DNA of 64,000 bases, taken from assembly GCA_036488875.1 (NCBI GenBank), contig DASXGW010000007.1:62001-126000 (forward strand), given 5' to 3'. Origin of the DNA: Candidatus Baltobacteraceae bacterium (lineage in GTDB: Bacteria > Vulcanimicrobiota > Vulcanimicrobiia > Vulcanimicrobiales > Vulcanimicrobiaceae). Made by a program: the position numbers and the translations under genes. The notes below the pieces were generated by a model. It was given only the letters and a program-made list of their open reading frames with translations, made no database searches and was not told the origin of the DNA. Positions 2,509 to 62,859 of the stretch are shown here, one piece after another (the first letter of the stretch is position 1; every line of letters starts with the position of its first letter).

Positions 2509-3363
2509 ATGAGCTCAGCAGTGAACGGCGCAACGCAGACCCCGTTCGGACGCGAGGCGCGTTCGTTCGACGGCAAGCGCGTCATCAACTATTCGAAGGA
2601 CGGTCACGTCGCCATCATCGAGATGGACGATCCGCCGGCCAACACGTACACGCACGAGATGATGCGTCAGCTCGACGACGCGATTCTCGACGCTCGCTTC
2701 GACGGCGACGTCGAGGTGATTTTACTCGCGGGCAAAGGCGAGAAATTCTTCTCGGCCGGAGCGAACATCGGCATGCTCAACTCCGTCACGCCCGAGTTCA
2801 AGTATATGTTCTGCCTTCACGCCAACGAGACGCTGTTGCGCTTGGAGCAGACGCCGAAGCTCGTCATCGCCGCGCTCAACGGACATACCGTCGGCGGCGG
2901 TCTCGAGATCGCAATGGCGGCCGACATCCGCATCGCGCGTCAGGATGCGGGCAAAATCGGTCTGCCGGAGGTCGCGCTCGGCGTACTTCCCGGAACCGGC
3001 GGCACACAGCGCCTCGCGCGGTTGGTCGGCAAGTCGCGCTCGATCGAGCTCATGGTGACCGGCAAGACCGTAAGCTTCGAGCAGGCCTTGGATTGGGGCA
3101 TCATCAACGACATCTACGAAGGCAGCGCGCAAGAGTTCCGCGAGCAAATGCTGGACTACGCCAGGCAGTTCTGCACGCCCAATAAGGCGCCGATGGCGGT
3201 CGGACACATCAAGCGCAGCGTGCAAACCGGTGCCGAGCTTCCGTTGCAGGATGCGCTCGCGCTCGAGCGCGAGCTGCAATCATTGCTCTTCAAGAGCGAA
3301 GACGCTAAAGAAGGCATCGCGGCGTACAACGAAAAGCGCGTCGCCAAGTTCAAAAACAAATAA
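2509..3363 (+). CDS. enoyl-CoA hydratase/isomerase (crotonase family)
   Basis: A 284-residue crotonase-fold enzyme. The oxyanion-hole and active-site segments are intact: GHTVGGGLEIAMAADIR carries the first catalytic Glu, and GLPEVALGVLPGTGGTQRL carries the second, so true syn-hydratase activity is expected rather than a one-Glu variant. The start at 2509 lies one base after the boxB-like stop, so the two are translationally coupled. In this setting it probably hydrates the ring-opened or dehydro-acyl-CoA product of the epoxidase branch (PaaF or BoxC-like role), although general beta-oxidation is also possible. An in-frame extension into the upstream gene is not needed. Confidence 0.87.
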   Translation: MSSAVNGATQTPFGREARSFDGKRVINYSKDGHVAIIEMDDPPANTYTHEMMRQLDDAILDARFDGDVEVILLAGKGEKFFSAGANIGMLNSVTPEFKYMFCLHANETLLRLEQTPKLVIAALNGHTVGGGLEIAMAADIRIARQDAGKIGLPEVALGVLPGTGGTQRLARLVGKSRSIELMVTGKTVSFEQALDWGIINDIYEGSAQEFREQMLDYARQFCTPNKAPMAVGHIKRSVQTGAELPLQDALALERELQSLLFKSEDAKEGIAAYNEKRVAKFKNK

Positions 3364-4101
3364 TTGACCTGGTTCGACCGGGCGCCGACGTGGCTCGCTT
3401 TCATCGTCATGATTGCCGTCGCAAACGCCGTGGCGTTGTCGGCGATGTACGTCGCGCGCCGCTGGTCGCACCGGATGGGCGTGACCAGCGGTCCTCCGGT
3501 CGTCAGTGCCTGGGCGACGTGCGCCGGCGGACTCACCGCGCTGCTCTTTGCTTTTACGATCGTGACGGTCTGGAATAGCGCGGCGCGCGCGAAATCCGAC
3601 GTTGACGACGAAGCCGCGGCGATTCGGCTCGTCGCGCGCGACATCGCTCCCGCGCAACGGGTGCTGCTGCGCGAGTACGTCAACGAAACGATCGCCGAGT
3701 GGCCGGCGTTGTGCGGCGGCGAGCAAGATCCGAAGGTCGACGCGACCTTGGTCGCGTTGCAGCAAGCCGCCAAGCCGCGCTCACCGTCGTACGCCGACGA
3801 CCTGTATCGCCAGCTCGGCACGATGGAAGACCTGCGCAACCGCCGTTGGCAGACGTCCACCTCGTCGATCCCCGACGAAATCTGGGTCGCGCTCCTGGTG
3901 CTGTCGTGCTCCGTGCTGATCGTACTGAGTTTGGCGTTAACCGAGCGGCCCGAACCCCAGACCGTGCTGACGGCCGCCGTTGCGACCGCACTCGGCACGC
4001 TCTTCTGGGTTGCCGGCGTCCTCGAGTATCCATTCTGCGGGCGTACCGGCATAGGCCCAGGAGAACTTCTCGACATCGTCCGGGCCCATTTGTTGTCATG
4101 A
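3364..4101 (+). CDS. DUF4239-like membrane protein
   Basis: A 245-residue integral membrane protein beginning with TTG directly after the hydratase stop. There are two N-terminal membrane helices (about 8-30 and 50-70), a soluble helical middle part of about 100 residues, and two more helices near 170-190 and 200-220. The pattern of a hydrophobic helix followed by DVDDEAAAIRLVARD resembles the DUF4239 (bestrophin-like) family. Function is unknown; a channel role is only an analogy. It overlaps the next gene by ATGA. Confidence 0.6.
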   Translation: MTWFDRAPTWLAFIVMIAVANAVALSAMYVARRWSHRMGVTSGPPVVSAWATCAGGLTALLFAFTIVTVWNSAARAKSDVDDEAAAIRLVARDIAPAQRVLLREYVNETIAEWPALCGGEQDPKVDATLVALQQAAKPRSPSYADDLYRQLGTMEDLRNRRWQTSTSSIPDEIWVALLVLSCSVLIVLSLALTERPEPQTVLTAAVATALGTLFWVAGVLEYPFCGRTGIGPGELLDIVRAHLLS

Positions 4102-4334
4102 GCCGAATCCAAACGCTGCTCGCTCTGGCAGCCGTCATTTCCGCCAGCATCGCGGCCTTGCAAGTGCCCGGCCGATTGATTTTTGCGGCAATCGCCGTTG
4201 CGCTGCTGATCGCGGTCGCCGGTGCGCGTCTGCGAGCGGCGCTGGTCGAGAAACGCGAGCCGCCAAGCGGCTTCGACGCCGCCGAACGCGCGCGGCAAAT
4301 TCGCGAGGACCGGCGACGGCGCTTGGGCGGATAA
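4098..4334 (+). CDS. small two-helix membrane protein
   Basis: A 78-residue protein with two predicted membrane helices (about 5-22 and 27-46) and a strongly basic, Arg-rich tail ending in REDRRRRLGG. The ATG overlaps the stop of the preceding membrane protein as ATGA, which is good evidence that it is translated with it. I recognise no family. The tail would lie in the cytoplasm by the positive-inside rule. Confidence 0.6.
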   Translation: MSRIQTLLALAAVISASIAALQVPGRLIFAAIAVALLIAVAGARLRAALVEKREPPSGFDAAERARQIREDRRRRLGG

Positions 4335-27239: not shown

Positions 27240-27412
27240 CGGCTTGCAGCGGTATCCTGACTCGCGGGTACGAACGCCGTCGTTGCCCTCGCCTTCCAAT
27301 CTCTCGATCGTGGCTTCGGGCGGCTCCCCGCTTACAGTGGCGCGACCGTGCCGGCATCGAACCGGCTTCCCGCGCGCAAACCTAGGCCGGTAGCCTTGGC
27401 AGCGGGAGACGG
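27240..27412 (-). promoter_or_regulatory. cobalamin riboswitch
   Basis: On the minus strand the leader of btuB contains the AdoCbl riboswitch core: GGAAGCCGGT (P3/P4 region), a GATGCCGGCACGG arm, the near-invariant GCCACTGTAAGCGGGGAGC (around 27324-27341) and the 3' side AGTCAGGATACCGCTGC. About 35 bases separate it from the btuB ATG. When cobalamin binds, btuBCD expression should fall. The order of elements and their conservation leave little doubt; exact ends are approximate. Confidence 0.95.
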
Positions 27413-60085: not shown

Positions 60086-61363
60086 CTATCCCCCGAGGAG
60101 TTTGGGATAGAGCTGGCCGGTAACGTAGAGCACCGAGAGGCAGCCGATGACGACGACGGTCGTCCATCCGATGGCGTTGGCGAGCGGCGAGTTCGTGTGC
60201 GTACCCATGATCTGCTTGCGATTGACGATGATCAGCATGAGCACCAGCTCGGCAGGTAACAAAATACCCTGCAAATCCTGCGCGAAAAGAATCAGCTTGA
60301 GCAGATGTATGCCTGGGATCAAGACGACCGCGGCACCGAGGACGAGGCCGACCGCGAAGAGCGAGAAGAAGACCGGCGCTTCGGAAAATTTGCGGTTGAT
60401 TGCCGCTTCGAACCCAAAGGCTTCGCAGACCACGTAGGCGGTCGAGAGCGGAAGGACGGTCGCGGTGAAGATGCCCGCGTTGAGAATGCCGAACGCAAAG
60501 ATCGTCTCCGCCCATTTTCCGGCGAGCGGCCGCAGGGCTTCGGCGAAGTCCGACGCTTGCTGCGGCTGAAGGTTGGCGCCATGCTGATTGGCGATGAAGA
60601 TCGTCGCCGCGTTCGCGATGATCATGAAGGCGGCGAGCGCGATTGCCAGCACCGAGCCGTTGACGACGTCGACTCGCGCAAGCGGCAGATCTTCGGGACG
60701 CAAATCTTTCTCGACCACAGCCGACTGTAAGTAGAACTGCATGTACGGCGAGATCGTCGTACCGATCAAGCCGACGACGGCGACCAGCCAGCCCGCGGTC
60801 TGTAAGTGAAACGTCGGAATCAAACCGTGTGCAACGTCGCCCCAATGCGGGTGGGCCAGCACGGCCGACGCGATGTACGTGAGATAGACGAGCGAGAATC
60901 CCACGAAGATGCGTTCGACGGTTTTGCTCTCCAAGCGCAACACGAGCAGAAAGACGAAGACCAACGCGCCCGGTATCGCAATATATCTCGAAACGCCGAA
61001 GATTTCCGAAGCGGCCGCAACGCCGGCGAACTCGGTGGCGGCAAGCAGCGTGTTGATGAGGAAGAGCGCAGCCATCGCGAGGAACGAGATGCGAACGCCG
61101 AATGTCTCGCGCATGAGCGAGGCGAGGCCTTTGCCCGTGATGCAGCCCATGCGCATCGCCATCTCTTGTACCACGATGAGCGCGATCGCCAGCGGCACCA
61201 TGATCCAGATCAGGCTGTAGCCGAACTGCGCGCCCGCCGACGAGTACTGCGCGATGCCGCCGACGTCGTTGCCGGCCGACGCCGTGATAAAGCCCGGACC
61301 GAGAACGGCCGCAATCAGTAGCAGCGTTCGCGTGAACGAGCGCCGGCGCGGAGCCTCGACCAC
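60086..61363 (-). CDS. Nramp-fold permease, probable Mg2+ transporter (NRMT-like)
   Basis: A 425-residue membrane protein with about eleven helices of the Nramp/SLC11 family. The segment GPGFITASAGNDVGGIAQYS is helix 1 and GTTISPYMQFYLQS helix 6. Compared with Mn/Fe transporters, DPGN becomes DVGG (D33 kept, N replaced by G36) and MPH becomes SPY (S205-P206-Y207). The lost Met is the soft ligand that rejects Mg2+ and Ca2+; its loss is a feature of the NRMT magnesium branch. It begins five bases after the MgtE_N-CBS gene, behind an M-box riboswitch. Mg2+ uptake is my inference from these three facts; a different divalent metal is possible. Confidence 0.8.
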   Translation of the reverse strand: MVEAPRRRSFTRTLLLIAAVLGPGFITASAGNDVGGIAQYSSAGAQFGYSLIWIMVPLAIALIVVQEMAMRMGCITGKGLASLMRETFGVRISFLAMAALFLINTLLAATEFAGVAAASEIFGVSRYIAIPGALVFVFLLVLRLESKTVERIFVGFSLVYLTYIASAVLAHPHWGDVAHGLIPTFHLQTAGWLVAVVGLIGTTISPYMQFYLQSAVVEKDLRPEDLPLARVDVVNGSVLAIALAAFMIIANAATIFIANQHGANLQPQQASDFAEALRPLAGKWAETIFAFGILNAGIFTATVLPLSTAYVVCEAFGFEAAINRKFSEAPVFFSLFAVGLVLGAAVVLIPGIHLLKLILFAQDLQGILLPAELVLMLIIVNRKQIMGTHTNSPLANAIGWTTVVVIGCLSVLYVTGQLYPKLLGG

Positions 61364-61368
61364 CGGTG

Positions 61369-62661
61369 TCAGGCTCCGACGGCGTGATGATGGTGACGCG
61401 CCATGAAGTGCGGCAGCTTCTTGGCTACGTCAGGCGGCATGATGGCGTCGATCGCGTCGTCGACGGTCACGATGCCGAGCATCTTTCCTTTATCGTCGAC
61501 GACGGGCACCGCCAGAATGTCGTACTTGGCGATCGTCGCGGCGACGTCGACGGCGGGAGCGTCAGGGTGTACCGAAACGACGTCGGTATCCATGATGCGG
61601 TCGATAAATGCGGTCGGCAGCGCCAACAGCAACGTGCGCAGCGACAGCGTGCCGAGCAGCATGTCGTCCTTGTCGACCACATAGAGGTAGTAAATGAACT
61701 CCGACGTCGGCGCGATCTCGCGAATCTTGCGGATCGTCGCTTCGGTCGTGCGATGCGGATAGATCCACGTGTAGTCGGTGGTCATCAAGCCGCCCGCAGA
61801 GTCTTCAGCGTACTTGACGAGCTCGCGCAGCTCGTCGGCGGTGTACGCGTTCATCTCGGCCAGCAGCTCGGTCTGCTGATCCTCGGGAAGCTCGGCGAGC
61901 AGGTCGGCCGCGTCGTCGGCGTCCATCTCCTCGATGATGTCGGCGGCGCGTTCGGTACCGATGTCCTCGATGAGCGTCTTTTGCGTTTCGGCGTCGAGAT
62001 GCTCGAACGCGTCGGCGGCGGTCTCGTCGTCGAGCTGCTGCACGACCGCGACGGCTTCGCGCGCGGACAGATCGCCGATGATTTCGGCGAGCTCCGACGG
62101 ATGCAGGCGCGAGAGTTTACTCTCTTTGACGGCCAGCCGGACTTGGCTGGGATTTGGCTCGCGAATCGGCGAGACCGAATCCCACGCGATCATCGCGCGC
62201 GGTACGCGTTTGTAGATTGCCGGCGTAAAGCGCTTGCCGAACGAACGAAGGCCAAGCCGCCGCAATAGTCCCGCGACGCCGACGTCGGCCGCAACGACGC
62301 GCAGCCGGCCACCGGCATTGGCCACCTCGATATCGTTGATGCGCACGACCTTCCGGCCGTCGACGTCGACGATTTGCTTGTCGAGCAAGTCGGCGACCAG
62401 GTAGAGCTCCTCGCCCTCGGGCGGTGCCGGATCTTTGGGCGCCATGGTGAGCGCAACCGTACCGTCGCGATCGACGTCGACAACGGTCTCGATCGGGGCA
62501 AAGCGAGGCCCCTGCGCCGTCTTTACGACCAGGCCGTCGATATGTGGGAACGTGTCGTCGGGTTTTTTGACGAGAAAGTCGGTGACTTTACCGATGGGAA
62601 GGTCGTTGATCGTCGCGCGGCGCCCGACCAACTCCGAAATGAAACCCTCAGTAAACGCCAT
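61369..62661 (-). CDS. soluble PRC-MgtE_N-CBS magnesium sensor protein
   Basis: A 430-residue cytosolic protein. Domains: PRC-barrel (about 1-80) and a second PRC-like strand set (about 88-135), linker, MgtE N domain of superhelical repeats (about 185-285, for example EHLDAETQKTLIEDIG), and a CBS pair (about 300-415, with YYLYVVDKDDMLLGTLSL and DILAVPVVDDKGKMLGIVTV). MgtE channels use these N and CBS domains to bind Mg2+ and close the pore, but here the five-helix pore domain is missing. It ends in a His-rich RHHHHAVGA. GGAGG lies seven bases before ATG 62661. Gene order suggests it gates the Nramp protein. Confidence 0.85.
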   Translation of the reverse strand: MAFTEGFISELVGRRATINDLPIGKVTDFLVKKPDDTFPHIDGLVVKTAQGPRFAPIETVVDVDRDGTVALTMAPKDPAPPEGEELYLVADLLDKQIVDVDGRKVVRINDIEVANAGGRLRVVAADVGVAGLLRRLGLRSFGKRFTPAIYKRVPRAMIAWDSVSPIREPNPSQVRLAVKESKLSRLHPSELAEIIGDLSAREAVAVVQQLDDETAADAFEHLDAETQKTLIEDIGTERAADIIEEMDADDAADLLAELPEDQQTELLAEMNAYTADELRELVKYAEDSAGGLMTTDYTWIYPHRTTEATIRKIREIAPTSEFIYYLYVVDKDDMLLGTLSLRTLLLALPTAFIDRIMDTDVVSVHPDAPAVDVAATIAKYDILAVPVVDDKGKMLGIVTVDDAIDAIMPPDVAKKLPHFMARHHHHAVGA

Positions 62662-62674
62662 CTCACGCCTCCGT

Positions 62675-62830
62675 CGCAGCGAGCTTTGGCACCACGCACC
62701 GTAGACCCGAAGGTCAGCCGCGTTAGGCATCGCCTTGTCTCGGCGGAGCCTGGTGTACCCACTTGGCGTCTCTCGACGTTTCGGGGCAGCGGCCTATGTA
62801 TCGCGTGGACGCCTCACCTAGCGAGGTTGT
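62675..62830 (-). promoter_or_regulatory. M-box (ykoK) magnesium riboswitch
   Basis: The minus-strand leader of the sensor gene matches the M-box consensus in order: GCTAGGTGAGGCGTCC, then a GATACAT loop, GCTGCCCC, the highly conserved AACGTCGAGAGACGCCAAG (62762-62780), then GGGTACACCAGG, and CCAAAGCTC near the end. It ends about 15 bases before the ATG, so control may be by translation. High Mg2+ should reduce expression of both downstream genes. Confidence 0.9.
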
Positions 62831-62838
62831 CAGCTTTT

Positions 62839-62844
62839 AGTATA
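62839..62844 (-). promoter_or_regulatory. -10 box before the M-box
   Basis: TATACT on the minus strand, nine bases upstream of the riboswitch 5' end, is placed as expected for the transcript. No convincing -35 element is found at 16-18 bases. Confidence 0.4.
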
Positions 62845-62859
62845 CACCAAAGATCCAGC

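Follow-up and report, generated by a model that had tools for sequence, protein, structure and literature searches.

The 64,000-nucleotide stretch of DNA analysed here (the window) belongs to a bacterium of the Vulcanimicrobium family within the Eremiobacterota/Vulcanimicrobiota, of which Vulcanimicrobium alpinum WC8-2 was the first cultured member (PMC9758169). On its minus strand, an M-box Mg2+ riboswitch is followed by a gene for a soluble sensor protein and then by a gene for an Nramp-fold permease, with the aptamer touching the ATG of the sensor gene (Table 1). The three-part anatomy of M-box RNA, soluble MgtE-type sensor and Nramp-type permease is genuine. The initial annotation, which had described an M-box, a soluble PRC-MgtE_N-CBS protein, an NRMT-like permease and a five-base gap between the two genes, was borne out on each of these points, except that the upstream end of the M-box lies at 62832 and not at 62830. 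The element TATACT upstream of the aptamer is graded as weak because a consensus scan returned no sigma-70-type promoter.

Table 1. Features of the M-box/sensor/permease locus (window coordinates)
Feature	Position	Strand	Basis
M-box Mg2+ riboswitch aptamer	62662..62832	-	RF00380 covariance-model match
Soluble sensor gene, 430 aa, no pore or plug helix	61369..62661	-	Pfam, PDB sequence match, AlphaFold, Foldseek
NRMT-type Nramp-fold permease gene, 425 aa, GTG start	60086..61363	-	PF01566, EleNRMT match, tree
Five-base gap from sensor stop to permease start	61364..61368		sequence
Possible -10 element TATACT, directly upstream of aptamer	62833..62850	-	by eye; no good -35; weak

Beyond the permease gene, positions 60083-55884 hold genes for a PAS-GGDEF protein, a PucR-type regulator and glutamine synthetase. 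This arrangement is syntenic with that of relatives (L188, L193, L194), and the synteny persists in relatives whose permease has left the sensor. Elsewhere the window contains a cobalamin riboswitch (27250-27372, minus strand; RF00174, 66 bits).

The M-box matches its covariance model over the full length (model positions 1-169) with 122.3 bits and an E-value of 7e-27, the gathering score of RF00380 being 44 bits, and it is the only copy in the genome. The 3' strand of its P1 helix (approximately 62668-62674) contains GGAGG, the Shine-Dalgarno sequence of the sensor gene, which lies six bases before the ATG and pairs with CCUC of the P1 5' strand in the covariance-model alignment. The longest sensor open reading frame opens at 62730, inside the aptamer; the likely start is the ATG at 62661, directly after the M-box. 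The spacing between aptamer and start codon is thus zero bases, a feature common to the window, its genus neighbour G111, G055 and G115 among 33 leaders compared, with nine bases in G061. In 28 of these leaders the spacing is 56-201 bases, and nearly all of the 28 show a terminator-like hairpin and U run. Since the ribosome-binding site is part of the P1 helix, the window M-box would have no separate expression platform. With GGAGG paired in this helix so close to the ATG, the aptamer, once folded at high Mg, should directly hide the ribosome site. Judged from the leader sequence, this is probably a platform-less M-box that acts on translation, a minimal form of the riboswitch. The folding energy of the leader was dropped as evidence, as it is not exceptional (z -0.2). 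RNA-level control of the permease operon by the M-box is well supported; the position of the element fits control of a Mg transporter gene, and from that position a response to Mg is predicted. The first translational M-box, that of Mycobacterium tuberculosis pe20, was described only recently (PMC12810186). Both elements would target translation rather than an intrinsic terminator, but the pe20 M-box employs an anti-SD/anti-anti-SD platform together with Rho termination and controls a uORF, whereas in the window the Shine-Dalgarno sequence resides in the P1 helix of the aptamer and the ATG follows directly.

The sensor protein comprises a PRC-barrel-like beta region (residues ~1-180), an MgtE_N domain (186-287) and a pair of CBS domains (~290-408). 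Pfam detects MgtE_N with 93 bits, two CBS domains, and PRC with 22 bits, barely above the cut-off of 21.2 bits. No membrane helix is present in the sensor, and AlphaFold predicts a soluble protein, all-beta and then alpha/beta, with a mean pLDDT of 87. A PDB sequence search matches it to the cytosolic domain of Thermus thermophilus MgtE (TtMgtE) with an E-value of 8e-38, and in Foldseek its C-terminal part superposes on the cytosolic domain of Mg-bound MgtE at 2.3 A, with a TM-score of 0.83 normalised by the target and 36% identity. The sensor thus resembles TtMgtE (2zy9, 2yvy) in its N domain and in a CBS pair with Mg-site carboxylates, but differs from it in having an additional N-terminal PRC-barrel region and neither pore nor plug helix. 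The alignment ends at MgtE residue 252, short of the plug helix, and the pore domain (PF01769) is absent both from the sensor and from the entire window genome, which is 97.6% complete.

Mutation of MgtE residues E59, D91, D95, D226, D247 and D250 disturbs Mg-dependent closure (PMC5882242). The corresponding residues of the window sensor are D217, D249, D253, D381, D402 and D405, so that all six Mg-site positions are acidic, whereas of all 49 acidic MgtE positions covered by the alignment 28 are acidic in the window sensor (hypergeometric P 0.027). Of 39 sensors from the phylum, 37 have acidic residues at all six positions. At locus L181, which is probably Acp2976/Acp2977 of Acidobacterium capsulatum, the sensor reads E-S-D-N-H-A and has lost four of the six. 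Loci from other phyla show a weak difference in intact Mg-site count with M-box linkage (P 0.025), based on six loci with kinship ignored. The Mg-site carboxylates of the window sensor resemble those of the MgtE cytosolic sensor domain and predict Mg binding. The ATP site has fared differently: of the MgtE ATP-contact residues Y170, R187, D188, N203 and F227 (PMC5529423), the window sensor keeps Y and R, whereas D188, N203 and F227 are T, D and I. With three of the five residues replaced, regulation of the sensor by ATP is unlikely.

Many of the positions that are near-invariant across 55 sensors from several phyla fall in the N-terminal PRC-barrel region, which MgtE lacks; these include L93, D94, Q96, D99, R107, V108, N109, D110, R134 and R135. 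This region is the best-conserved portion of the sensor, and a PRC domain was detected in 51 of the 55. PRC-barrels serve as docking regions elsewhere, and by analogy this region may dock the sensor.

The permease belongs to PF01566 (288 bits). The DVGG and SPY motifs reported by the initial annotation are found in TM1 (AGNDVGG) and TM6 (GTTISPYM), in place of the MntH-type DPGN of helix 1 and MPH of helix 6, neither of which is present. Its nearest solved relative is EleNRMT of Eggerthella lenta (7qia; E 2.6e-97, 330 bits), the Mn/Fe Nramps reaching at most 90 bits, which places the permease in the NRMT branch as had been proposed. The NRMT binding-site motif pairs DxxG of helix 1 with TxxA/T of helix 6 (PMC8806188). 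At this site (NDVGG and TTIS) the permease keeps D, G and T and lacks the Met, while the fourth residue is Ser rather than Ala or Thr; Ser is typical of its group in the phylum, Ala or Thr of relatives from other phyla. EleNRMT likewise combines the Nramp fold with DxxG in helix 1 and a Thr without Met in helix 6, but its helix 6 reads IAPWM where the window has ISPYM, and the paper describing it discusses neither a sensor nor a riboswitch (PMC8806188). In two acidobacterial permeases (L182, L184) helix 6 carries ATVAPW instead of TTIAPW, possibly with a shift of ion preference.

No CorA was found in the 97.6% complete window genome. Since this genome has neither CorA nor an MgtE pore, the permease is probably the main Mg importer of the cell; from this, from the M-box control and from its closeness to EleNRMT we infer that Mg2+ is its substrate. 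The pattern extends to the family: 98 sampled genomes included 86 with NRMT, 15 with CorA, none with MgtE and 72 with NRMT but without CorA or MgtE, in a survey limited to CorA, the MgtE pore and NRMT.

That the permease instead imports mainly Mn or a mixture of divalent ions, the M-box being a secondary control, is improbable, although it has precedents. EleNRMT carries Mn besides Mg (PMC8806188), and the A. capsulatum NrmT moves Mn despite its MgtE-like fragment (Shin et al. 2014, PMC4072509). In our tree the permease groups with M-box-linked permeases of other phyla, far from DraNramp, but the large clade of 67 rows that contains the window permease also includes the probable Acp2977 (L181), and EleNRMT lies outside it, with long branches. 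The tree was for this reason rejected as arbiter of Mg versus Mn: because a Mn-transporting relative shares the clade of the window, the tree alone leaves the substrate unsettled. Against Mn as the main substrate stand the M-box control, the lack of CorA and MgtE in the window genome, and the Mg sites that the window sensor has kept and the probable A. capsulatum sensor has mostly lost. Moreover, the NRMTs with a linked M-box that Shin et al. tested imported Mg and could not import Mn (PMC4072509).

The initial annotation further held that, to its knowledge, no system with all three parts had been described. This novelty claim does not stand, as exactly that set was reported in 2014. Genes related to Nramp were then noted to have M-boxes upstream, chiefly in Clostridia and Deltaproteobacteria, and Mg import was demonstrated for two Clostridium acetobutylicum proteins, named NrmT (Shin et al. 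2014, PMC4072509). Most members of the NrmT group adjoin a gene for a homologue of the N-terminal cytoplasmic domain of MgtE, and cytoplasmic feedback gating was already proposed for this MgtE-like fragment and NrmT (PMC4072509). Among the closest described systems is the C. acetobutylicum Ca_c0685 operon (CabNRMT), which, like the window, unites an M-box, MgtE N-terminal-type coding sequence and NrmT in one operon; its fragment, however, is split into two genes, its Mg import is shown by rescue, and M-boxes of its type are described as acting through a transcription terminator (PMC4072509). The window has a single sensor gene, which includes a PRC-barrel, and its M-box lacks a terminator platform. 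The A. capsulatum locus Acp2976/Acp2977 (probably L181) also has a PRC-like/MgtE_N/CBS gene directly before a permease of the NrmT clade, but differs from the window in lacking an M-box, in having lost four of six Mg-site carboxylates where the window has lost none, and in demonstrated Mn transport (PMC4072509). New here are the acidity pattern of the Mg sites, the PRC-barrel region and the apparently platform-less M-box of the window.

The association of these genes was examined in 148 genomes of the phylum containing 120 permease genes of this group, with counts that ignore shared ancestry. Sixty-two of the 120 permease genes lie directly downstream of a sensor gene on the same strand, and an M-box just precedes the sensor in 39 of these 62 pairs. 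For a further 30 permeases the M-box stands directly before the permease gene, three of them with a convergent sensor gene, and for ten another gene intervenes between M-box and permease. By genome, 110 encode both proteins, 4 only the permease, 7 only the sensor and 27 neither. In G054 and G136 sensor and permease occupy different loci, each with a strong M-box of its own. A scan of contigs from outside the phylum revealed sensor-permease pairs in Bacillota, Thermodesulfobacteriota, Nitrospirota, Acidobacteriota, Omnitrophota, Spirochaetota and Armatimonadota, with complete M-box/sensor/permease sets at L073, L074, L075, L078, L089 and L091. A further set resides on the Alicyclobacillus fastidiosus plasmid NZ_CP104068 (L195; M-box 1446-1614, sensor 1737-2981, permease 2992-4233), where its position between recombinase and transposase genes suggests transfer as a cassette. 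The neighbourhood is therefore conserved, as the initial annotation expected, and conservation of the unit over several phyla, together with its complete presence on a plasmid, refutes chance adjacency without a functional link, an explanation to which we give almost no weight. The three outcomes named beforehand as fatal to the annotation (no M-box match, grouping of the permease with Mn/Fe transporters, unconserved neighbours) were none of them found, Mn being compatible with the tree alone. No natural fusion of sensor and permease was seen among the compared loci; long open frames such as those at L098 and L059 were rejected as fusions, since they are overlapping frames. The nearest relative of the window (L058; G111:C28) has M-box, sensor and permease followed in tandem by another M-box and another NRMT, this one of the SPW type.

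We interpret the locus as a Mg-uptake operon of the kind described by Shin et al., under M-box control, in which the Mg-bound sensor most likely lowers transport by the permease, and assign this reading a probability of about 60%. The permease would import Mg2+. At high cytosolic Mg2+ the M-box would fold and its P1 helix bury the Shine-Dalgarno sequence, lowering synthesis of the sensor and presumably, given the narrow gap between the genes, that of the permease as well. The sensor would bind cytosolic Mg2+ at the inter-domain carboxylate sites that close MgtE, and would dock on the permease through its PRC-barrel region to lower transport.

Such gating in trans is plausible and consistent with the retained Mg sites, but the plug helix, through which the sensor of MgtE acts, is absent from the window protein. 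The operon could also import Mg without any gating by the soluble protein, which might instead buffer Mg, serve as a chaperone or assembly factor, or regulate some other target. This second explanation, which we regard as unlikely but deserving of weight, would accommodate the missing plug helix, the several genomes in which the sensor lies away from any permease gene, and the structure prediction for a related pair joined into one chain (L075, with Gln at the stop codon), which gave a pTM of 0.62 and no confident docking. It would also fit the observations that the C. acetobutylicum transporters needed no fragment to rescue growth and that co-expression of the fragment with the A. capsulatum transporter, which gave Mn rescue but poor Mg rescue, brought no gain (PMC4072509). 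At low Mg, however, no gain in rescue would be expected from a negative regulator, and the near one-to-one co-occurrence of sensor and NRMT, the five-base spacing within the operon and the retention of the gate-closing Mg sites all speak for regulation of the permease by the sensor. A more specific proposal, which we offer tentatively and with less confidence than the gating reading itself, is that the MgtE sensor, detached from its channel, has acquired a PRC-barrel docking domain and now serves as an exchangeable inhibitory subunit that responds to Mg and acts on a carrier of the unrelated LeuT fold, coupled in this lineage to an M-box reduced to aptamer and start codon in which P1 acts as the ribosome-site switch.

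The question whether the sensor module of a channel could control, in trans, a carrier with a different fold dates back to 2014, and the complete M-box/sensor/permease sets provide clear test material. The Mg-site residues, kept in the Mg-type pair and mostly lost in the Mn-type pair, afford a testable contrast; the PRC-barrel region is a docking candidate, and V. alpinum is a cultured relative. The locus also draws attention to a bacterial family that seems to depend on NRMT in place of CorA and MgtE, and to a minimal M-box that probably acts on translation.

Two further M-box arrangements were observed in the compared loci. In V. alpinum (L166, 3562-5214) an M-box at 739684 precedes a 550-aa Nramp protein of another branch, with NDAGA/TTIAPW motifs and a C-terminal extension. 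At L161 (778-2628) a 616-aa open reading frame lies between the M-box and the NRMT gene, and the corresponding M-box-to-NRMT spacing of ~2.2 kb recurs in G081, G107, G071, G129, G042 and G146. The encoded protein matches no Pfam family but has the appearance of an outer-membrane beta-barrel, and is possibly an outer-membrane route for Mg.
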